A DNA stretch of 64,000 nt from Falsiroseomonas bella (GTDB lineage: Bacteria; Pseudomonadota; Alphaproteobacteria; Acetobacterales; Acetobacteraceae). Each line of letters starts with the position of its first letter. The first letter of the stretch is position 1. Made by a program: the position numbers and the translations under genes. Under the pieces are notes generated by a model. It was not told the DNA's origin and did not search any database. It was given only the letters and a program-made list of their open reading frames with translations. Shown here one piece after another: positions 26,010-36,255 of this stretch. Where the stretch lies: positions 186,001-250,000 of the forward strand of contig NZ_QGNA01000005.1 of NCBI RefSeq assembly GCF_003173615.1, written 5' to 3'.

Positions 26010-26185
26010 GACCGTCCTTCCTGACCAGAAGCGGGGGCGAACGCCCCGCGCCGGCGTCCCGATACGGATAGCGAATCGTACGGACCCGGGCAGCCCCTCA
26101 TGGCAATCATGCCCCGTGGACGCCGCTGCGAACCCGCCGCGAACCCATGCCGCAGCGCACATGGCGCATGAAGAAGGATGGACCC

Positions 26186-27613
26186 ATGAGCATTCCACGC
26201 CGCTCCGCGGCCCTGGCAGGTCTCGGACTGCTGACCGGTGCCGCGCTGCCGCCGCAGGGCACCGCCCTCGCTGAAGGCCTGCGCCTGTTCGAAGGCATGG
26301 AGGACTTCTGGACCGCGAGCGAGGCCTACATCTTCGGCTACCCGCTTGTGACGATGGAGATGACGCGCCGCGTCATCACCAACGTCGCGGAGCCGGCCGG
26401 CACGCGCGGCCCGATGGGGCACATCATCAAGCTCCGGCAGTATCCGGATGCGAGCTTCCGCGACGTCACGGCGCCCAATGCCGACACGCTCTACACCACG
26501 TCCTTCTTCGATGTGGGGCGCGAGCCGATGGTGCTGTCGCTGCCCGACATGAAGGGCCGCTACGCGCTGTTCCCGATGCTGGATGGCTGGACCACGGTGT
26601 TCCAGGTGCCGGGCAAGCGCACCACCGGCACCGGCGCGCAGACCTACGCCATCACGGGGCCGGGCTGGACCGGCACGCTGCCGCCCGGCGTCACCGAGTA
26701 CAAGTGCCGCACCAACATCGTCTGGCTGCTCGGGCGCATCTATTGCACCGGCACGCCGGAGGACTACCGCGAGGTGCATGCCCTGCAGGACCAGGTCTCT
26801 TTGGTGCCGCTCAGCGCCTATGGCCGGCCCTATACGCCGCCGCCGGGCCGGGTCGACCCGTCAGTCGACATGCGCACCGCGGTGCGCGACCAGGTGAACC
26901 GGATGTCCGCGGTGGAATACTTCACGCTGCTGGCGCAACTGCTGAAGACGAACCCGCCCGCGCCGGCCGACGCGCCGCACATCGCCCGCTTCGCGCGCAT
27001 CGGCCTGGTGCCCGGCCAGGATTTCGACGCCGCCAAGCTGCGCGCCGACTTCGCCAGCCGCATCCCCTCGGTCTCCTTCGACCGGATCATGATCCAGTAT
27101 CGGATCAACCCGGCGGTGCAGAACATCAACGGCTTCGGCTTCACGACCAAGACCGGCATCTACGGCACCGACTACCTGATGCGCGCGCTGGTCACCGCCA
27201 TCGGGCTCGGCGCCAACCGGCCGCAGGACGCGGTCTATCCGACCTCCCTGAAGGATGCCGACGGCAGCGAATACAGCGGCGCCAACCGCTACGTCATGCG
27301 CTTCGCGCCGGGTCAGTTGCCACCGGCGGAGGGCTTCTGGTCGCTGACCATGTACGACGCCGACTACTTCTTCGTGGCGAACCCGATCAACCGGTATTCG
27401 ATCAGCGCGCGCCAGGACCTCAAGCGCAACCCGGACGGGTCGGTCGACCTCCTGATCCAGCACGCCTCGCCCGGCGCCGACCGCGAATCGAACTGGCTGC
27501 CGGCGCCCGCGGGCAAGTTCGTGCTGATGCTGCGCCTCTACTGGCCGAGCGAGACCGATCCCTCGATCCTGGATGGCAGCTGGACGATCCCGGCCGCGCG
27601 CAAGGTGAGCTGA
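26186..27613 (+). CDS. Exported DUF1254/DUF1214 protein (first of a tandem pair)
   Basis: 475 residues from ATG at 26186, which is preceded by an AAGGATGG site. A signal peptide with IPRRS and an Ala-rich core ends near residue 30. The N-terminal half matches DUF1254 (YIFGYPLVTMEMTRR, DVTAPNADTLYTTSFFDV), the C-terminal half DUF1214 (GFWSLTMYDADYFFV, NPINRYSI, LLIQHASPGADRESNWLPAP, MLRLYWPSE). The family's biochemical role is not established. It is adjacent to and codirectional with a paralogue of exactly the same length. Confidence 0.88.
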   Translation: MSIPRRSAALAGLGLLTGAALPPQGTALAEGLRLFEGMEDFWTASEAYIFGYPLVTMEMTRRVITNVAEPAGTRGPMGHIIKLRQYPDASFRDVTAPNADTLYTTSFFDVGREPMVLSLPDMKGRYALFPMLDGWTTVFQVPGKRTTGTGAQTYAITGPGWTGTLPPGVTEYKCRTNIVWLLGRIYCTGTPEDYREVHALQDQVSLVPLSAYGRPYTPPPGRVDPSVDMRTAVRDQVNRMSAVEYFTLLAQLLKTNPPAPADAPHIARFARIGLVPGQDFDAAKLRADFASRIPSVSFDRIMIQYRINPAVQNINGFGFTTKTGIYGTDYLMRALVTAIGLGANRPQDAVYPTSLKDADGSEYSGANRYVMRFAPGQLPPAEGFWSLTMYDADYFFVANPINRYSISARQDLKRNPDGSVDLLIQHASPGADRESNWLPAPAGKFVLMLRLYWPSETDPSILDGSWTIPAARKVS

Positions 27614-27638
27614 CCTGCCCGGCGCAAGGCCGGCCCCC

Positions 27639-27670
27639 GCACCGGGCCGGCCGGCGGCCCGGCCCGGTGC
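27639..27670 (+). repeat. Perfect 12-bp hairpin between the tandem DUF1254 genes
   Basis: GCACCGGGCCGG (27639-27650), loop CCGGCGGC, CCGGCCCGGTGC (27659-27670). It starts 26 bases after the first gene's stop. No T run follows, so it is either a rho-type/structural 3' end or a processing stabiliser of the upstream cistron. Confidence 0.6.
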
Positions 27671-27808
27671 GGCCGCGCCGCGCGCTTGCCTCTTTCGGCT
27701 ACCGGTTCCGCTTGGCCATGCCGACCCCGCAATGGCACCGTTCAGCGGTATGGGCCGGGCCGGCCGTGCTGGGGCGCGGCGGGCGCCGATCGGCGAGAGG
27801 AAATCGGC

Positions 27809-29236
27809 ATGACCACCAAACGCAACCTTCTTCTGGCGGCAGGATCCGCCGCACTGGCCGGCGGGGCCCTCTCCCGCCCGGCGCTCGCCCAGGCAAGCCG
27901 CTCCGGCATCGTCGCGTCCTTCGAAGCCGCCGAGGCCGCCTTCGTCTTCGGCCTGCCGATCGTGTCGAACTACGCCGTGATGTACGAATACGCGATCGAC
28001 CGGAACAGCGGCCAGTTCAAGGCGCCCTTCAACCAGATCTTCAACGAGGCGCGGGTCTTCACCTGGCAGGACACGGCAATCCCCACGCCGAACAGCGATA
28101 CGCCCTACTCCGTGGCCTGGCTCGACCTGCGCGCCGAGCCGGTGGTGATCTCGGTCCCCGACGTGCCAGCGGGCCGCTACTTCTCCGTCATGATCTGCGA
28201 CGGCAACACGTACAATGTCGGCTACATCGGCAGCCGCGCGACAGGACAGGGCGCGGGTTCCTGGCTGATCGTCGGCCCGGGCTGGCAGGGCCAGACCCCG
28301 GCCGGGATCAAGGGCGTCATCCGCTCCACCACCTGGTTCACGATGGCGGCGTTCCGCACCCAGCTCTTCGGCCCCGAGGACATGCCGAACGTCGTCGCGG
28401 TGCAGCGCGGCTACAAGGTCGAGCCACTCTCGACCTTCCTCCGCCAGCCCGCCCCGCCGCCGGCGCCGGAGATCCGCTGGCCGCGCATCACCGCCGACCT
28501 CGCGAAACACCACTTCTTCGACTACCTGGCCTTCGCGCTGCAGTTCAACCCGCCGCAGCCGAACGAGGCGACGATCCGCGCGCAGTTGGCCTCCATCGGC
28601 ATCGACGGCCGCGGCTCGCCCCTGCCGGGCTCCCTGTTCGACCGGCTCGAGCTGCTTGCCGGCGCCGTCGAGGGCGAGCGCAAGGTGGACGCTGCCTTCG
28701 GTGCCGCCGGGGTGCCGATGAACGGATGGCGCGTGACGCCGATCCCCGGCAGCCCCGAGGCCTACAATGGCGACTGGATGCTGCGGTCGGTCGCGACCAA
28801 GGCGGGGATCTACGGCAACTCCACCGAGGAGGCGACCTATCCCTTCACCCGGCACGACGTGACGGGCGCCGTGCTGGACGGCAGCACCGGGCGCTACACG
28901 CTGACCTTCGCGGAGAACGCACTGCCGCCGGTCAACGCCTTCTGGTCGGTGACGATGTACCACGGCGGCAACCAGCTGCTCGTCCAGAACCCGATAGACC
29001 GCTACCTGATCAATTCGCCCATGCTGAACGGCATGCGGCGCAATCCCGATGGCGGGCTGACCATCCACATCCGGAAGGACGACCCGGGCGCCGAGCTGCG
29101 GGCGAACTGGCTGCCGGCGCCGGACGGGCCGATCTATCTGGTCATGCGGCTCTACTGGCCGAAGACGGAGGCACCGTCGCTCCTGCCGATCGGCCGCGGC
29201 GCGTGGCAGCCGCCCGGTATCGTGAAGGTGGGGTGA
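27809..29236 (+). CDS. Exported DUF1254/DUF1214 protein (second of a tandem pair)
   Basis: 475 residues from ATG at 27809 with a GAGAGGAAA ribosome-binding site. Signal peptide to about residue 25 (TTKRNLLLAAGSAALAGG, then RPALAQA). Same domain order as its neighbour: FVFGLPIVSNYAVMYEYA and IPTPNSDTPYSVAWLDL (DUF1254), then NAFWSVTMYHGGNQLLV, NPIDRYLI, IRKDDPGAELRANWLPAP, MRLYWPK (DUF1214). The two copies are clearly diverged, so the duplication is old. Function unknown. Confidence 0.88.
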   Translation: MTTKRNLLLAAGSAALAGGALSRPALAQASRSGIVASFEAAEAAFVFGLPIVSNYAVMYEYAIDRNSGQFKAPFNQIFNEARVFTWQDTAIPTPNSDTPYSVAWLDLRAEPVVISVPDVPAGRYFSVMICDGNTYNVGYIGSRATGQGAGSWLIVGPGWQGQTPAGIKGVIRSTTWFTMAAFRTQLFGPEDMPNVVAVQRGYKVEPLSTFLRQPAPPPAPEIRWPRITADLAKHHFFDYLAFALQFNPPQPNEATIRAQLASIGIDGRGSPLPGSLFDRLELLAGAVEGERKVDAAFGAAGVPMNGWRVTPIPGSPEAYNGDWMLRSVATKAGIYGNSTEEATYPFTRHDVTGAVLDGSTGRYTLTFAENALPPVNAFWSVTMYHGGNQLLVQNPIDRYLINSPMLNGMRRNPDGGLTIHIRKDDPGAELRANWLPAPDGPIYLVMRLYWPKTEAPSLLPIGRGAWQPPGIVKVG

Positions 29237-30758: not shown

Positions 30759-31082
30759 GTGACCCTCGGAATCCTTTTTGTGGCGCTTCGCCCCCGGGAG
30801 CGGCGCCCGCCAGTATGAAGCCCGCCCCGTTAGCGCCACGCGCGCCCGGGGGCAATCCTTCGGGTCCCGCCACCGGCCCCGGCCCGGGGCGTCACCGCAC
30901 GCGCCACGCCTCGCCTCCCACCGCGCGGCCGGGGCCACTCGCCCGGCGGCCGCCAGAGGGGGCACGCCGGTCCGCGCATCACCGCCCGTGGCGCCGACGA
31001 AGACGCGCCTGCGCGGGGCTTGAAGGTCACTGCGCTCGTTACTTCATGAATGCAATATGACAATGACGGTGAGGATGGCCGG
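30759..31082. other. Intergenic region between divergent tig and arsR-type gene
   Basis: 324 bases without a supported gene. The tig side is GC-rich and holds its GAGGG ribosome-binding site. The last 50 bases before the regulator gene are notably AT-richer (ACTTCATGAATGCAATATGA, 31041-31060), the most probable place for its promoter and operator. No RNA gene or clean terminator was seen. Confidence 0.5.
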
Positions 31083-31415
31083 ATGAGCGAAACGACGGCT
31101 GGCGCCCAGGAAGACCCGGGCGTCATGCAGGAGAAGGCGGCGGAGGCGGCGCGGTTGCTGCGCCTGCTGGCCGACGAGGACAGGCTGCTCCTGCTCTGCC
31201 TGCTCGCCACCGAGGGTGCGATGACCGCGGCGGCTCTGGCCCGGGCGCTCAACCTGCCGGACGTCAGGCTGTCGCGGCTGCTGGACGGGCTGCGCGAGGA
31301 TGGGCTCGTGGCCCCCTGCGACGGGCCGCGGGAGGTCACCTACCGGCTGACCGATCCCAGGACCGGCCGCATCCTGACCCTGCTGCACGACATCTGCTGC
31401 CGGCCCGCCGGCTGA
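31083..31415 (+). CDS. ArsR-family repressor of the SqrR/BigR (persulfide-sensing) type
   Basis: 110 residues from ATG at 31083 with GAGG 8 bases before it; a start at 31050 would add 11 residues. Winged-helix protein with LLRLLADEDRLLLLCLL, a recognition segment LNLPDVRLSRLLDGLREDGLV, and RLTDPRTGRILTLLHDICC. Cys39 and Cys105 are 66 residues apart, the same spacing as the redox pair Cys41/Cys107 of SqrR and Cys42/Cys108 of BigR, which form tri/tetrasulfide links with reactive sulfur. Cys79 and Cys106 are extra. Convergent with the activase operon, 19 bases from its end. Ligand assignment is inference from spacing. Confidence 0.8.
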   Translation: MSETTAGAQEDPGVMQEKAAEAARLLRLLADEDRLLLLCLLATEGAMTAAALARALNLPDVRLSRLLDGLREDGLVAPCDGPREVTYRLTDPRTGRILTLLHDICCRPAG

Positions 31416-31434: not shown

Positions 31435-32649
31435 TCAACCCGGCGCGAGCGGGCAGTCCGGCGGCAGCAGCGCCCGCTTGCGCGCGATGATCCCGGCCGA
31501 GGACCGGCCGAGATAGTGCAGGATCGTCTCCACGCGGATGCGGACGGAGCCCGCCGGCTTGGTGGAATCCAGCTCCTGGAACGCGAAATACAGCGTCCCC
31601 GAATGTTCCACGATGGCCTGCACCGGCGTGAAGGTCGGCTGGTCCATGCCGCATTCGTAGCTGGTCATGCGGATCACGCCGGCGATCCAGGGCATGCGCG
31701 CAGCGAATTTCGCGCCCCAGATGATCTCGTTGGTGTTCGCGCTGTAGGAGGAAGGCCAGACATCGGCGATGTCGAAGGGCGAGGCCATGAGGCCCGCGCG
31801 CACCTCCTCGCCGAACAGCCAGTCCATCAGCGCGGGATCCTGCGGCAGGTATTGCGACCACAGCACCGGATAGCCGGCATTCTGCAGGTCGTTCTCGATC
31901 TCGTGGCCGATGCCGGGGTCCATGTGGTAGGGCCGCGCGAGCACGAGGATGCAGGGCCTGCCCTCGGCCGCGCAGCGTTCCAGCACGTGCCGGCTGCGCC
32001 CGCGCATGTCTGCGTCGAAGCGGGCGAGCGCGGCGAAGCCCTCGGCCACCGCCGCCTCGGTCTCCGCCGGCGTCAGCCCGGGCAGGATGCCGTCGAAGGC
32101 CTTGAAGAGCTGGCCCGCCACCAGCTGCGGCTCGGCCAGCGTCACCAGCGGCGCGACGTAGCGCAGCCCCGCCTCCGCGAAGAGGTCCTTCTCCCGCGTG
32201 AAGCCGGCCCGCACCATCTCCGGCCCGGCCATCACGCGCGGGCAGGCCAGGTTGTCCACCACATGCCCGGCCAGCATCGAAGGCATGTTGTAGATCAGCG
32301 GCGAGAACAGCACGTCGAGCTTGCGGCGCTGGCCGAACATCAGCTCGCCATAGTGGGCCGAGGCGCATTTCACCGGCCAGCAGCAATCCACCGTGCCGCG
32401 GCCGCGGCCGAACTCGCGGAACTGCTCCTCCGAGGTGTCGCTCGAGAAGACCAGGCGGTTCGCCGGCAGGCCGAGCGCGCCGAAGAAGCCGAGCCAGAAG
32501 CGGTGCGTGGACCAGACGTTCAGGACGCGCGGCATGCCGATGCGCAGCTTTGCGCGCGCCGCCCGCTCGGCCTCGGTCAGCTCAGGCGACGAGGCGGACG
32601 GACCGGAAGGCTTCCTCGCGAACCAGGGCACCAATGTTCGGCGAGACAC
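31435..32649 (-). CDS. CoA-dehydratase activase-associated protein, COG3580/DUF2229 type
   Basis: 404 residues. Start is GTG at 32649, which has a strong GGAGGAG site 7 bases upstream, although it overlaps the preceding gene by 68 bases; the conserved part begins at IGMPRVLNVWSTHRFWLGFF. DUF2229-like pattern: DCCWPVKCASAHYGELM near residue 90, CPRVMAGPEMV, and YECGMDQPTFTPVQAIVEHS near the C-terminus, with the cysteines available for an Fe-S cluster. Corresponds to the C-terminal module of large fused activase proteins in anaerobes. Last gene of a three-gene operon. Catalytic role unknown; family ties to the D-component of 2-hydroxyacyl-CoA dehydratases are from general knowledge. Confidence 0.82.
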   Translation of the reverse strand: MSRRTLVPWFARKPSGPSASSPELTEAERAARAKLRIGMPRVLNVWSTHRFWLGFFGALGLPANRLVFSSDTSEEQFREFGRGRGTVDCCWPVKCASAHYGELMFGQRRKLDVLFSPLIYNMPSMLAGHVVDNLACPRVMAGPEMVRAGFTREKDLFAEAGLRYVAPLVTLAEPQLVAGQLFKAFDGILPGLTPAETEAAVAEGFAALARFDADMRGRSRHVLERCAAEGRPCILVLARPYHMDPGIGHEIENDLQNAGYPVLWSQYLPQDPALMDWLFGEEVRAGLMASPFDIADVWPSSYSANTNEIIWGAKFAARMPWIAGVIRMTSYECGMDQPTFTPVQAIVEHSGTLYFAFQELDSTKPAGSVRIRVETILHYLGRSSAGIIARKRALLPPDCPLAPG

Positions 32650-34747
32650 CGGCGTTCTCCTCCATCGCGTCCTTCACCGCGCGCATCTCGTTGACGTCCT
32701 CCACCAGCCCCTTCGGGCAGGAGTTGGCGGCGATGACGCGCTGCCATCCGGGCTCCAGCGGCACCTTGCTCCAGGGGCGGCCCGGCGCGCCGGGCAGTTC
32801 CACATCGATGAAGCTGCGCTTGCAGTTCACCGTGCACCAGCGGCAGACGGTGTCCTCGCTGGTCGTGGTGCGCCAGGTCAGCGCCTCGATCGCGTCGAAG
32901 CCGCGGAAGCGCGTGGCCTTGCCCGGCGACCAGGCATCGAGCGCCGAGAGCGCCGCGCCCATCGCGCCGGCCTCGCCGGCGTAAGGGTGCACGCGGATCT
33001 CGGCATCGGGGATGCGGGCGGTGATGAAGTCCACCTGCGCCTTGACCACGGCCAGGTTGCGATGCGTGCCGCCCTGCAGCACGAAGCGTCGCCCCGCCGC
33101 GCGCAGATTGTTGAGCTGGCCGGCATAGACCCAGACATTCAGCGGCAGCACCGCGGCGAGCGCGGCCATGATCTCCTCCGCCGACCAGCCCTTGCGCTGC
33201 TGGTTGACGATGTCGGATTGCAGGAAGACACCGCAGCCCATGGCGAGGGAGGGCATGGCGCGCGCCGCGAAGGCCTTCTCGGCATAGTCCTCCAGACGGA
33301 TGCCGTAGCGTTCCGCGACACCCTGCAGGAAGGCGCCGTTGCCCGAGGAGCATTGCGAGTTCAGCCGGAAATCCGCGACCGTGCCCTGCCGCAGCATCAT
33401 GATCTTCACGTCGGTGCCGCCGACGTCGCAGATGACATCGGCATCGGGGAAGACCGCGATCGCGGAGCGCGCATGCGCGACGGTCTCCACCACCGCCTCG
33501 TCCGCGCCGAGGATGTCGCGCAGCAGGTCCTTGCCGTAGCCGGTCAGCGCGAGCGCCCCGATCTCGGTGAGCCCCGCCGCGCTGATGTCGCGGAACAGCG
33601 CACGCGCATCCTCGATCGGGTTGCCCTTGGAGGGCGTGTAGGCGGTGTGCAGCAGCCTGCCGTCGGGCGCGAGCGCCACGGCCTTGGCGGTGGTGCTGCC
33701 GAAGTCGCAGCCGAGGATCACCGGGCCGCGATGCCCCTCCGCGCCCACGGGCGGCGGCCCCGCGGTCGCGCCGTAGCGCGCGCGGAAGTCTGCGAGCGCC
33801 GCGGGATCGCCACCGAGCGGCGTGCCGCCTTCCTTCGCCTTCGCCGCGTGCTGCCCTTCCTCGACCCACCAGCGCAGCGTCGTGCCGCCGACATAGCGGC
33901 CGGAGTCCGGCGGCTCGGTTCCCGCCACCTCCACGCAGCCGAGCGCACCGTAGTAGAGCGCGTCCGCCGGCACCGTGATCAGCATCTCAGGCGTCGCGTC
34001 CTCGGGCAGCGCCACGCCGCGCTCCTGCCAGAGCAGGCCGAGATGGTGCCGCCAGGCCTGCTGCAGCCCCAGGAAGAAGCAGTTGGGGCCGCCGAGCAGC
34101 AGCACCTGCGGCATCGGCGTGTTGCCCTTCGTCAGCGTCGCCAGGTTCTGGTAGACCACCGCCTCGAACAGGCTGGCGACGATCTCCTCCACCTTCACGC
34201 CCGACTTCAGCAGCGAATTCGCGTCCGCCTCCGCAAAGATGCCGCATTTCGAGCTGATCTTGTGCAGCGTGTGCCCGTCATAGGGCATGCGCGCGAGGTC
34301 CTCGGGCGGGATGCGCAGCTTGCGGGCCGTCTTCTCGATGAAGGTGCCCGTGCCGCCGCTGCAGGCGGACTGCATGTAGATCTGCTTGCCCTTCCCCGAC
34401 TCGGAGGCCGTGAAGAAGATCGTCTTCATGTCCTCGCCGCCGATCTCGGAGACGAAGTGGACATCGGGATGCAGCCTCTCCACCGCGGCGGCGACGGCGA
34501 CGACCTCCTGCACGATGCGGCCGCCGACCAGCGGCGCGATCACCCCCGCGCCGGAGCCGGTGAAGAACAGCCGGTCGCGCCCCGGCTGCAGGCCGCATTC
34601 GGCCTCAAGCCGCACCAGGAACTCCAGCACCTTCTCCGCCTGGTGGGTGTTGTGGCGCTGGTAGTCGCGCCACAGCACCGCATCGCCTTCGCAGAACACC
34701 GCCTTGACGGTGGTGGAGCCGACATCGATGCCGAGCGTGCGCATCAC
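32582..34747 (-). CDS. Tandem-domain ATPase activase of the BcrAD/BadFG/HgdC family
   Basis: 721 residues with two copies of the ASKHA-fold activase domain (COG1924). Copy 1 opens with LGIDVGSTTVKAVF and has Cys129 (QSACSGGTG) and Cys168 (SKCGIF); copy 2 opens near residue 345 with ILGCDFGSTTAKAVAL and has NSQCSSGNGAF and GCGVFLQSD. In HgdC two such cysteines per subunit bind the bridging 4Fe-4S cluster of a homodimer; here both halves lie in one chain, so an intramolecular pseudo-dimer is likely. The family couples ATP hydrolysis to very low-potential electron transfer. ATG at 34747 overlaps the upstream stop (ATGA). Confidence 0.9.
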   Translation of the reverse strand: MMRTLGIDVGSTTVKAVFCEGDAVLWRDYQRHNTHQAEKVLEFLVRLEAECGLQPGRDRLFFTGSGAGVIAPLVGGRIVQEVVAVAAAVERLHPDVHFVSEIGGEDMKTIFFTASESGKGKQIYMQSACSGGTGTFIEKTARKLRIPPEDLARMPYDGHTLHKISSKCGIFAEADANSLLKSGVKVEEIVASLFEAVVYQNLATLTKGNTPMPQVLLLGGPNCFFLGLQQAWRHHLGLLWQERGVALPEDATPEMLITVPADALYYGALGCVEVAGTEPPDSGRYVGGTTLRWWVEEGQHAAKAKEGGTPLGGDPAALADFRARYGATAGPPPVGAEGHRGPVILGCDFGSTTAKAVALAPDGRLLHTAYTPSKGNPIEDARALFRDISAAGLTEIGALALTGYGKDLLRDILGADEAVVETVAHARSAIAVFPDADVICDVGGTDVKIMMLRQGTVADFRLNSQCSSGNGAFLQGVAERYGIRLEDYAEKAFAARAMPSLAMGCGVFLQSDIVNQQRKGWSAEEIMAALAAVLPLNVWVYAGQLNNLRAAGRRFVLQGGTHRNLAVVKAQVDFITARIPDAEIRVHPYAGEAGAMGAALSALDAWSPGKATRFRGFDAIEALTWRTTTSEDTVCRWCTVNCKRSFIDVELPGAPGRPWSKVPLEPGWQRVIAANSCPKGLVEDVNEMRAVKDAMEENAGVSPNIGALVREEAFRSVRLVA

Positions 34748-36255
34748 AGGTGCTTCCCCGCCATGTGCAGCACGGCGTTCGCCGCCGTGCCCGCTGCGCC
34801 GCGATGCGGCAGCTTCCAGGTCGCGCGGCGCAGATCGGCATCGTCCGCCGCGCGTTGCCGCGCCTGGTCGAGCGTCATGCCCGCGGTCTTCAGCGCCTGC
34901 TCGAACTCCGCCGCGGCGCGCTTCTTCGCTTCCGTCAGGATCATCTGGCAGCGCGAGAGCGCGTGCACCTCGGCATCGCCCTTCACCTCGATCGGCGCGT
35001 AGAGCAGGTCGGGATGGTCGCCGAGCACGCGCGCCATCGCGCCGACGCTCATCGTGTTCGGCATGCAGGAATAGGGCGACAGCTCGCAGGTCATGTGCGC
35101 ATGCCGGTGCCGGTGCGCCCAGATCGCCTTGCCGATCAGCATGTCGCCCTCGCCGCCGGACAGGCGGTGGTGGAAATAGGGCGCGGCGAGCGCGCGCAGC
35201 TCCTCCTGCCGCGGCATCCCATGCGGGATGTGGTTCAGCGCGCCGCGCAACCGGTCATAGGTGAGGCGCAGCGCGCGCTGCAGCACGCCCGCCGCCGCGA
35301 TGCGCAGCCCGGCGTGGCGGATCGCGCCGCGCCGCTCCTCCGCTTCCTGCTTCGCGAAGCGGATCAGGTAGTCCAGCCAGACGGCGATGGAGGCCGGATA
35401 GACCTCCGCCCCCTCGGCCTCCAGCCAGCGATGGATGTTGTAGTTCGGCTCGCCCTCCACCGTATGGAGGTAGAACTCGCCGGTGATCTTCACGACCGGC
35501 TTCACGCGCAGCCGGTCCACCGCCACCGCGTCGAAGCGGCGGCGCGCCTGGCGCAGCGCATCGGTGAAATACGGCGTGGCGAGATGCCAGGCGAGCGCGC
35601 CCCATGTCTCGCCGCGCTTCGGCCGGTTGCGGAAGGCGTCGGCCAGCAGGTCCACGCTGTCCCGCACCGCGCGATCGGTCGCGCCGGGCTCCGTCTCGTA
35701 GGGGCGCGTGCGGTACTCCATGCCCTGGATCAGGTCGCCGCAGAGGCAGGCCCAGATGGCGCCGAGGATCAGCGGCAGGTCGGGCTGGAAGGCATCGGCG
35801 GCGCCATCCGACTGGTCCACCCGGTCCTGTGCCAGCAGCAGCATGCGGAAGCGCTCGAGCCCGAGGTTGCGCAGCGCAAGCTCGTAGCTCTGGTGATACT
35901 GCCCGAAGCGGCAGGCGCCGCAGGAGCCGACGGTGAGGAAGACATAGCGGTCGCGCACCGCCTGCGGCCCGGATCGCGCCGCCTCCTCGCGCAGGAAGTT
36001 GGCGAGGTTCCCGGTGGTGAAGGAGGTCGGGCAGCATTGGCCGATATCGGCCAGCTCGCGCCCGGTCATCAGGTCGGCGCGGGTCGCGGTGGGCAGGGCG
36101 CGGGCGCGGTAGCCGAGATTGGCGAAGACCGCCTCGATCAGCCGCTCGCTACGCCAGTGCAGGCCGCCGAACAGGAACTCGGCCTGGCGCGCCTCCGCCG
36201 CCGTCAGCCGCGCGGCGCGCGGCGGGCGCCAATGCCGGGTCGCGATCCCGTCCAT
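34744..36255 (-). CDS. CoA-dehydratase activase-associated protein, COG3581 type
   Basis: 503 residues, first gene of the activase operon. Cysteine-containing motifs suggest an Fe-S protein related to dehydratase D-components: ADIGQCCPTSFTTGN near residue 75, GSCGACRFGQYHQSYELAL near residue 112, WACLCGDLIQGMEYR, and CELSPYSCMPNTM near residue 405. Corresponds to another module of the single-chain fused activases. A perfect FNR/FixK-type palindrome lies 76 bases upstream of the ATG. The substrate or partner enzyme is not encoded in the window. I recognise the family but not a demonstrated function. Confidence 0.8.
   Translation of the reverse strand: MDGIATRHWRPPRAARLTAAEARQAEFLFGGLHWRSERLIEAVFANLGYRARALPTATRADLMTGRELADIGQCCPTSFTTGNLANFLREEAARSGPQAVRDRYVFLTVGSCGACRFGQYHQSYELALRNLGLERFRMLLLAQDRVDQSDGAADAFQPDLPLILGAIWACLCGDLIQGMEYRTRPYETEPGATDRAVRDSVDLLADAFRNRPKRGETWGALAWHLATPYFTDALRQARRRFDAVAVDRLRVKPVVKITGEFYLHTVEGEPNYNIHRWLEAEGAEVYPASIAVWLDYLIRFAKQEAEERRGAIRHAGLRIAAAGVLQRALRLTYDRLRGALNHIPHGMPRQEELRALAAPYFHHRLSGGEGDMLIGKAIWAHRHRHAHMTCELSPYSCMPNTMSVGAMARVLGDHPDLLYAPIEVKGDAEVHALSRCQMILTEAKKRAAAEFEQALKTAGMTLDQARQRAADDADLRRATWKLPHRGAAGTAANAVLHMAGKHL

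Follow-up and report, generated by a model that had tools for sequence, protein, structure and literature searches.

A three-gene, cysteine-enriched split member of the PlsA/PlsR-Ger superfamily in Falsiroseomonas bella as a candidate low-oxygen ether-lipid enzyme

Introduction

The described enzymes closest to the operon examined here, which lies in Falsiroseomonas bella (Acetobacteraceae) within a 64,000-nucleotide (nt) stretch of contig NZ_QGNA01000005.1 (positions 186,001 to 250,000; hereafter the window), are those that turn ester bonds of bacterial glycerolipids into ether bonds. In Clostridium perfringens, plsA and plsR convert the sn-1 ester into a vinyl ether, and the PlsA homologues of Thermotoga maritima and Desulfatibacillum alkenivorans, termed Ger or modified PlsA, yielded alkyl ethers upon anaerobic expression in Escherichia coli. 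PlsA comprises two activation domains (Act1, Act2) and two reduction/dehydration domains (Red1, Red2), and a 2026 paper proposed that the presence of two activation domains is linked to alkyl rather than vinyl ethers. PlsAR homologues are present in Solibacter usitatus, a maker of branched glycerol dialkyl glycerol tetraethers, and TetR regulators have been reported beside the pls genes of facultative anaerobes (PMC8788747, PMC9702350, PMC13274423, PMC11868695, PMC11150832, PMC10087280, PMC12838417). Here we compare these systems with three overlapping minus-strand genes at 31435-36255 of the window, named geneA, geneB and geneC (A, B and C) in order of transcription, which an earlier note, made from the sequence alone, had correctly recognized as an operon.

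Results

The products of the three genes aligned, in the order B, C, A, to successive parts of single-chain proteins from Listeria, Collinsella, Haliovirga, and alphaproteobacterial metagenome-assembled genomes (MAGs). Specifically, geneB had full-length matches in six of these proteins, at 30-34% identity over 643-683 aligned positions (E 4e-79 to 1e-90). Fused forms were also found, with B and C in one frame followed by A in an Acetobacteraceae MAG (G492, locus L044), and geneA followed by a B-C fusion in four Acidobacteria. The two activase domains with their cluster cysteines were both present in geneB (PF01869 twice), as the earlier note had described, and the two paralogous reduction/dehydration domains, Red1 and Red2, were present as C and A. 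Profile alignment of geneA with geneC extended over 367 columns (probability 95.6%, E 1.1e-8), by which the two subunits are paralogues.

Trees of B and of A, with 46 rows each, were rooted at the midpoint, had long branches flagged, and contained no expression-proven enzyme. The 26 rows with three separate genes (split rows) formed one clade, supported at 100/100 in the B tree and 99/100 in the A tree. All five BC-fused rows formed a clade adjacent to the split rows in the B tree (98/92), and the A tree grouped the four BC-fused rows from Acidobacteria (96/89) with L044 placed outside. Split and BC-fused rows combined (31 rows) were a clade at 100/100 in both trees, and this clade joined six Listeria-type single-chain rows (100/100 for B, 100/99 for A), with nine other acidobacterial rows placed apart. 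Based on this collinear homology, the operon is a split member of the PlsA/PlsR-Ger superfamily, as the topologies also suggest, and its earlier designation as the best candidate in the window for an undescribed system was too strong.

The PlsA/PlsR of C. perfringens and the single-chain forms of Enterococcus, Lactococcus, and Listeria likewise have two activase and two reduction domains, and the Listeria-type PlsA rows are collinear with B-C-A and hold the same family-wide cysteines. TetR neighbors, which occur with PlsA/PlsR in several lineages, were also seen at some split loci. Unlike PlsA/PlsR, the operon in the window has three genes in the order A-B-C, extra cysteines, oxygen-respiring hosts, and an FNR box rather than a TetR gene. 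Identity to the single-chain rows was 20-34%, and the PlsA of C. perfringens, Enterococcus, and Lactococcus were compared by description. Ger, also compared by description, is a PlsA homologue with two PF01869 domains, as in geneB; it is a single protein of ~159 kDa in D. alkenivorans, and its hosts are anaerobic.

Cysteines were surveyed in 79 (A), 59 (B), and 53 (C) split rows, from which sequences with stops, X or cut ends were excluded, together with 5 BC-fused, 6 Listeria-type, and 7-8 other acidobacterial rows; the geneB alignment counts from the second residue, and the cluster and four-cysteine positions cited here run one higher. In every surveyed row with a letter at the position, cysteine occupied geneA C74, C115, and C397, geneC C90, C136, and C333, and, in geneB, the activase pairs C129, C168, C466, and C505 (one pair per domain) as well as C642 and C677. 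The loss of cluster cysteines among homologues, which the earlier note had named as a sign of an accessory or relic system, was thus not seen. Three cysteines per catalytic subunit and four across two activase domains make up the pattern of the benzoyl-CoA reductase/2-hydroxyacyl-CoA dehydratase (BCR/HAD) family, and the [4Fe-4S] ligands of BzdO, for example, are Cys95/128/380 (PMC11971306).

The split clade had additional cysteines. In geneA, C390 (79/79 split rows), C436 (79/79), and C75 (77/79) were in none of the six Listeria-type rows, and C112 was in 79/79 split, 5/5 BC-fused, and 1/6 Listeria-type rows. Those in geneC were C89 (52/53), C233 (50/53), and C226 (51/53, and also in 2/7 other acidobacterial rows), and those in geneB were C271 (59/59 split rows, 1/8 others), C347 (58/59), and C440 (59/59, and also in 2/5 BC-fused rows); the six Listeria-type rows lacked all of these. 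Within geneA, C75, C112, and C390 lie near the canonical ligands in sequence and C436 lies apart, a number that suffices for one more cluster. Past both activase domains, C635, C638, C642, and C677 of geneB make up a second four-cysteine site that is kept nearly superfamily-wide, with C635 absent from one split row and C638 from 3/8 other acidobacterial rows. We know of no described role for this site.

The BzdN and BzdO subunits have three domains, of which the N- and C-terminal ones are alpha/beta (PMC11971306). An AlphaFold2 model of geneA (predicted local distance difference test, pLDDT, 84.9; predicted template modeling score 0.88) had pLDDT <50 at positions 113-118, around C115, and its predicted order of strands and helices would be compatible with two alpha/beta parts flanking a helical part.

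Among the activase, DUF2229, and HGD-D profiles that had been proposed for the three proteins, BcrAD_BadFG (PF01869) matched two stretches of geneB (E 2.5e-67), DUF2229 matched geneC (E 4e-38), and HGD-D (PF06050) matched none, including geneA and geneC. GeneA had no match among Pfam or NCBIfam models at E 0.001. The earlier note's observation that no dehydratase lies nearby held for 24 kb of the window and extended to the whole genome, where PF06050 had 0 matches (E. coli and M. jannaschii served as positive controls) and BcrAD gave, besides geneB, two weak sub-cut-off matches only. A profile of ten HGD-D proteins, which did find matches in benzoyl-CoA-type loci used as a control, had no match at E 10 among 6252 open reading frames from 80 related loci, L044, and the 24 kb of the window, so that no dehydratase pair was seen beside relatives' operons either. 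GeneC could be aligned to HGD-D proteins by profile at 81% probability (E 1.2e-5), across 348 columns, and its three cysteines fell on or near the CPLIK, TTCD, and QACH columns of YjiM; by this alignment geneC is detectably related to HGD-D. The shared descent of A with C, and of C with HGD-D, makes the flanking proteins most likely the catalytic partner of the activase, as had been proposed. BcrABCD, BzdNOPQ, HgdABC, and YjiML share the activase domain and cysteine pairs with geneB, and the BCR/HAD/double-cubane cluster protein (DCCP) family shares with the window genes the three-cysteine pattern of a catalytic [4Fe-4S]; the window genes differ in having no Pfam HGD-D match and, apparently, in the double-cubane cysteine set, which was not seen. 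No significant match was returned when A and C were compared by sequence with the PDB, or when profiles were searched with A1/A2.

The search of named genomes returned 128 confirmed relatives, which indicates that the operon is real beyond chance; locus counts are based on the best 80 of these. Order A-B-C was found in 57/58 loci whose contig covers the 3′ end of geneB (the other 22 of the 80 contigs end within geneB and were excluded), and the sole exception was a MAG with a broken geneA (L101). Only a fragment of C was seen in 4/57 ordered loci (L062, L080, L095, L123), and L128 had a stop within geneB. A and B overlapped by exactly 4 bases in 26/57 split loci. An overlap of B and C was found in 54/57, of which 18 had exactly 68 bases, and the relative frame was the same in 53/57; start codons were chosen by closeness to those of the window, which biases overlap lengths in that direction. 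Residues F10 and S15 of geneC, encoded within the B/C overlap, were at least 90% conserved, which is consistent with translation inside the overlap, though the geneB frame constrains the same bases.

The best 80 relatives included Roseomonas sp. HF4 (78%) and Caldovatus sediminis (67%), and others, mostly MAGs, came from Serpentinimonas, Hydrogenophaga, Gallionella, Rokubacteria, Acidobacteria, and Aquificaceae. Within the family, geneB had matches in 16/200 genomes, full-length in three (the F. bella genome itself, G520 at 73%, and G492 at 45%) and partial at 25-36% identity in the remaining 13. DUF2229 was in 2/59 genomes searched (F. bella included) and in 0/14 congeners. At class level, geneA was in 5/385 genomes, namely F. 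bella and four others whose frames of 1001-1415 amino acids (aa) contained a stretch matching at 23-26% identity; one of the four (G285) had internal stops. GeneA was also found in 62/121 Aquificota genomes, in frames ≤600 aa, and in 54/297 Acidobacteriota genomes, in several forms, three of which scored >860 bits. Six Aquificota genomes (G608, G609, G610, G612, G622, G645) encoded a divergent geneA apart from a B-C fusion, which suggests that the subunits can be unlinked, and in another (G639) A and B were together with C elsewhere on the same contig.

The AT-rich patch ahead of geneA holds TTGACTTACGTCAA, a match to TTGAC-N4-GTCAA, which we take to be the FNR/FixK/Dnr-type consensus; TTGAYNNNNRTCAA occurred once within the 64 kb (0.01 expected). 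Genome-wide, the box had 22 sites versus 1 for the reversed control pattern. At 16/21 of the other sites, some of which lie within frames, the neighboring protein was scanned, which identified ccoN, hemA (5-aminolevulinate synthase), bchE, OmpW, GroEL, cytochrome b561, and a transporter resembling NarK (its score was under the curated cut-off), accompanied by a divergently oriented Crp-type regulator. Such a gene make-up is typical of FNR/FixK regulons. Less telling neighbors were acetate-CoA ligase, patatin, a short-chain dehydrogenase/reductase, pyruvate dehydrogenase E1, a thiamine pyrophosphate enzyme, an NMT1-like protein, and DUF2252. The site preceding bchE (G000:C1:1541792-1541805, L192) raises the possibility of anoxygenic phototrophy in this organism. 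Upstream of geneA in Roseomonas sp. HF4 the half-sites are kept with a different spacer, at position -93, and a Burkholderiales MAG has the box at -78.

Table 1. Features of the operon, in window coordinates.
Feature	Position	Strand	Description
FNR/FixK/Dnr-type box TTGAC-N4-GTCAA	36331-36344		89 nt upstream of the geneA ATG
geneA	36255-34744	minus	ATG start, 503 aa; second reduction/dehydration subunit, aligned with the C-terminal segment of PlsA/Ger-type single chains; probable PlsR-like part
A/B stop/start overlap	34744-34747	minus	4 bases
geneB	34747-32582	minus	GTG start, 721 aa; two fused activase (BcrAD_BadFG) domains and C-terminal four-cysteine site
B/C overlap	32582-32649	minus	68 bases, different frames
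geneC	32649-31435	minus	GTG start, 404 aa; DUF2229, first reduction/dehydration subunit

A Shine-Dalgarno-like GGAGGAG precedes the geneC start. The operon lies 165 nt downstream of putA on the same strand, and beyond its 3′ end are an ArsR-like gene (31050-31415) and trigger factor. The closest model to the ArsR-family gene was BigR, below cut-off (48.6 versus 155 bits); it was rejected as an operon partner, being convergent to the operon and without a match in the Roseomonas sp. HF4 and Caldovatus loci. A tandem pair of DUF1254/DUF1214 proteins is located at 26147-29236. Foreign base composition was rejected, as the G+C content at third codon positions (GC3) of the operon, 0.93, is like that of neighboring genes, and comparison of the putA flanks with three congeners for an insertion scar was uninformative because homology stopped with putA on both sides.

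Across the 80 loci no neighboring gene was common to all, and recurrent neighbors were bound to lineages. A TetR gene was directly upstream of geneA in 13/80 (L059, L103, L105, L106, L108, L109, L112, L113, L118, L119, L120, L122, L123; assigned by Pfam for one), and Collinsella also has a TetR gene beside its single-chain gene. In 13/80 loci, from Rokubacteria, a protein directly upstream of geneA (e.g., L069:9217-10026) had EExxH/DExxH-type diiron motifs by eye and, in three, sub-cut-off matches to acyl-acyl carrier protein desaturase (PF03405, E 0.002 to 0.02); this protein may desaturate the same lipids.

Discussion

We consider, with moderate confidence, that the operon probably encodes a PlsA/Ger-type reductase of three subunits, driven by ATP and induced at low oxygen, which would turn the ester-bound fatty acids of membrane glycerolipids into chains attached by alkyl or vinyl ether bonds. 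We infer its substrate and product, from sequence, as well as its oxygen switch, cofactors, and subunit complex. The earlier note took the reduced substrate to be unknown, which stands in that the substrate is a candidate one, and gives way in that the kinship with PlsA/PlsR and Ger suggests glycerolipid ester bonds.

As oxygen falls, an FNR/FixK-type regulator would turn the operon on, as the motif and its regulon suggest. GeneB would hold a [4Fe-4S] cluster on four activase cysteines and, as in its family, use ATP to drive an electron to very low potential. A and C would form a catalytic heterodimer with one three-cysteine [4Fe-4S] cluster each, the ligands being conserved and the clusters and complex predicted. 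Following the published PlsA proposal, the ester would then be reduced to a radical, and further reduction, protonation, and loss of water would give the ether.

Hosts of the operon overlap with known makers of ether lipids. The aerobic hydrogen oxidizer Hydrogenobacter thermophilus TK-6 has glycerol monoethers, with diethers not detected (PMC3111988), Aquifex aeolicus has phospho-ether lipids (PMC3917532), and Aquificaceae are counted among makers of alkyl ethers (PMC5552659). This overlap is a correlation, not proof.

Several observations weigh against an ether-forming, oxygen-switched PlsA/Ger-type reductase. The lipid records above come from other lineages, not from F. bella or its nearest named kin. 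Across the clade no lipid gene was recognized beside the operon, where ten neighbors were annotated by Pfam and many had no annotation. GeneA is only 20-26% identical to single-chain proteins (38% to L044), and the extra cysteines invariant in the split clade are absent from Listeria-type rows, which together suggest that function may have shifted. Direct alignment of geneA to HGD-D was weak (probability 6%, E 0.006). Of the papers cited first above, one states that Ger and PlsA are indistinguishable by sequence alone, and, against the link it proposes between two activation domains and alkyl ethers, PlsA with Act1 and Act2 yields vinyl ethers. Finally, the box was in only 2/79 other upstream regions (77 were without it, Caldovatus included), and with one mismatch allowed the 2/79 showed no enrichment over 103/4700 background windows, which suggests that control differs between lineages. 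PF10520, which we take to represent the aerobic CarF/PEDS1 route to ether lipids, matched 0/17 split-operon genomes, but no control matched, so absence of that route is not shown.

Rather unlikely, in our estimation, is that the same machinery acts on another recalcitrant substrate (an acyl ester, a thioester, or, as in DCCPs, a small molecule), with extra clusters on the extra cysteines. Those cysteines, the long branch to the single-chain forms, and the want of a neighbor gene common to the clade all fit such a role, whereas the full domain set and family-wide cysteines have been kept, the nearest kin are PlsA/Ger-type, and the hosts overlap with ether-lipid makers. We regard as very unlikely a double-cubane cluster reductase acting on small molecules. 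Although geneA has seven invariant or near-invariant cysteines, only the three shared cysteine columns of A and C coincide with HGD-D cysteines in the profile alignments (that of A being weak), which leaves a double-cubane cluster in geneA unsupported. The ITGC site of YjiM corresponds to ITGE in geneA via the geneC alignment (the weak direct alignment of A puts this stretch elsewhere), and the extra cysteines of the split clade appear not to be at double-cubane positions, as judged from YjiM ligand positions taken from the order of BzdN ligands.

That the operon encodes an ordinary 2-hydroxyacyl-CoA dehydratase or a benzoyl-CoA reductase of class I is highly improbable: geneB does exceed the TIGR00241 cut-off and match HgdC by sequence, but at 101, 99, and 94 bits it falls far under the BcrA, BcrD, and BzdQ equivalog cut-offs (578, 313, and 380), HGD-D proteins are absent from the genome and related loci, and A and C lack significant PDB sequence matches. 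Equally hard to credit is a relic, or a free-standing activase serving an unlinked partner, which the sporadic family distribution described above could suggest, given the intact frames, conserved overlaps, invariant cysteines, neighbor-like GC3, and regulatory box, and a genome with no HGD-D partner.

Relative to the literature covered, the new elements of the PlsA/Ger-type reductase proposed here are the three-gene form, for which no description was found in the portions of open-access literature available, the additional cysteines, the distribution among oxygen-respiring bacteria, and the apparent membership of an FNR-type regulon. The three-gene, cysteine-enriched form spans Roseomonas, Caldovatus, Serpentinimonas, Rokubacteria, Acidobacteria, and Aquificaceae. 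As a tentative extension, which we hold possible but would not yet favor, this clade may represent the as yet missing enzyme by which oxygen-respiring bacteria form ether bonds. It would be a Ger switched on at low oxygen that makes alkyl ethers in Aquificaceae, Acidobacteria, Rokubacteria, and scattered Proteobacteria, and additional Fe-S or thiol chemistry in geneA would allow a catalyst of the BCR/HAD type to withstand traces of oxygen.

Ether lipids of bacteria serve as climate proxies and make the divide between archaeal and bacterial lipids less sharp, and their makers are poorly known. If the proposed function is correct, the operon would be a genome marker of ether-lipid makers among oxygen-respiring bacteria, covering the named isolates Roseomonas sp. 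HF4, Caldovatus sediminis, and Serpentinimonas barnesii, and an oxygen-sensitive enzyme class would prove usable by a respiring cell via induction at low oxygen.

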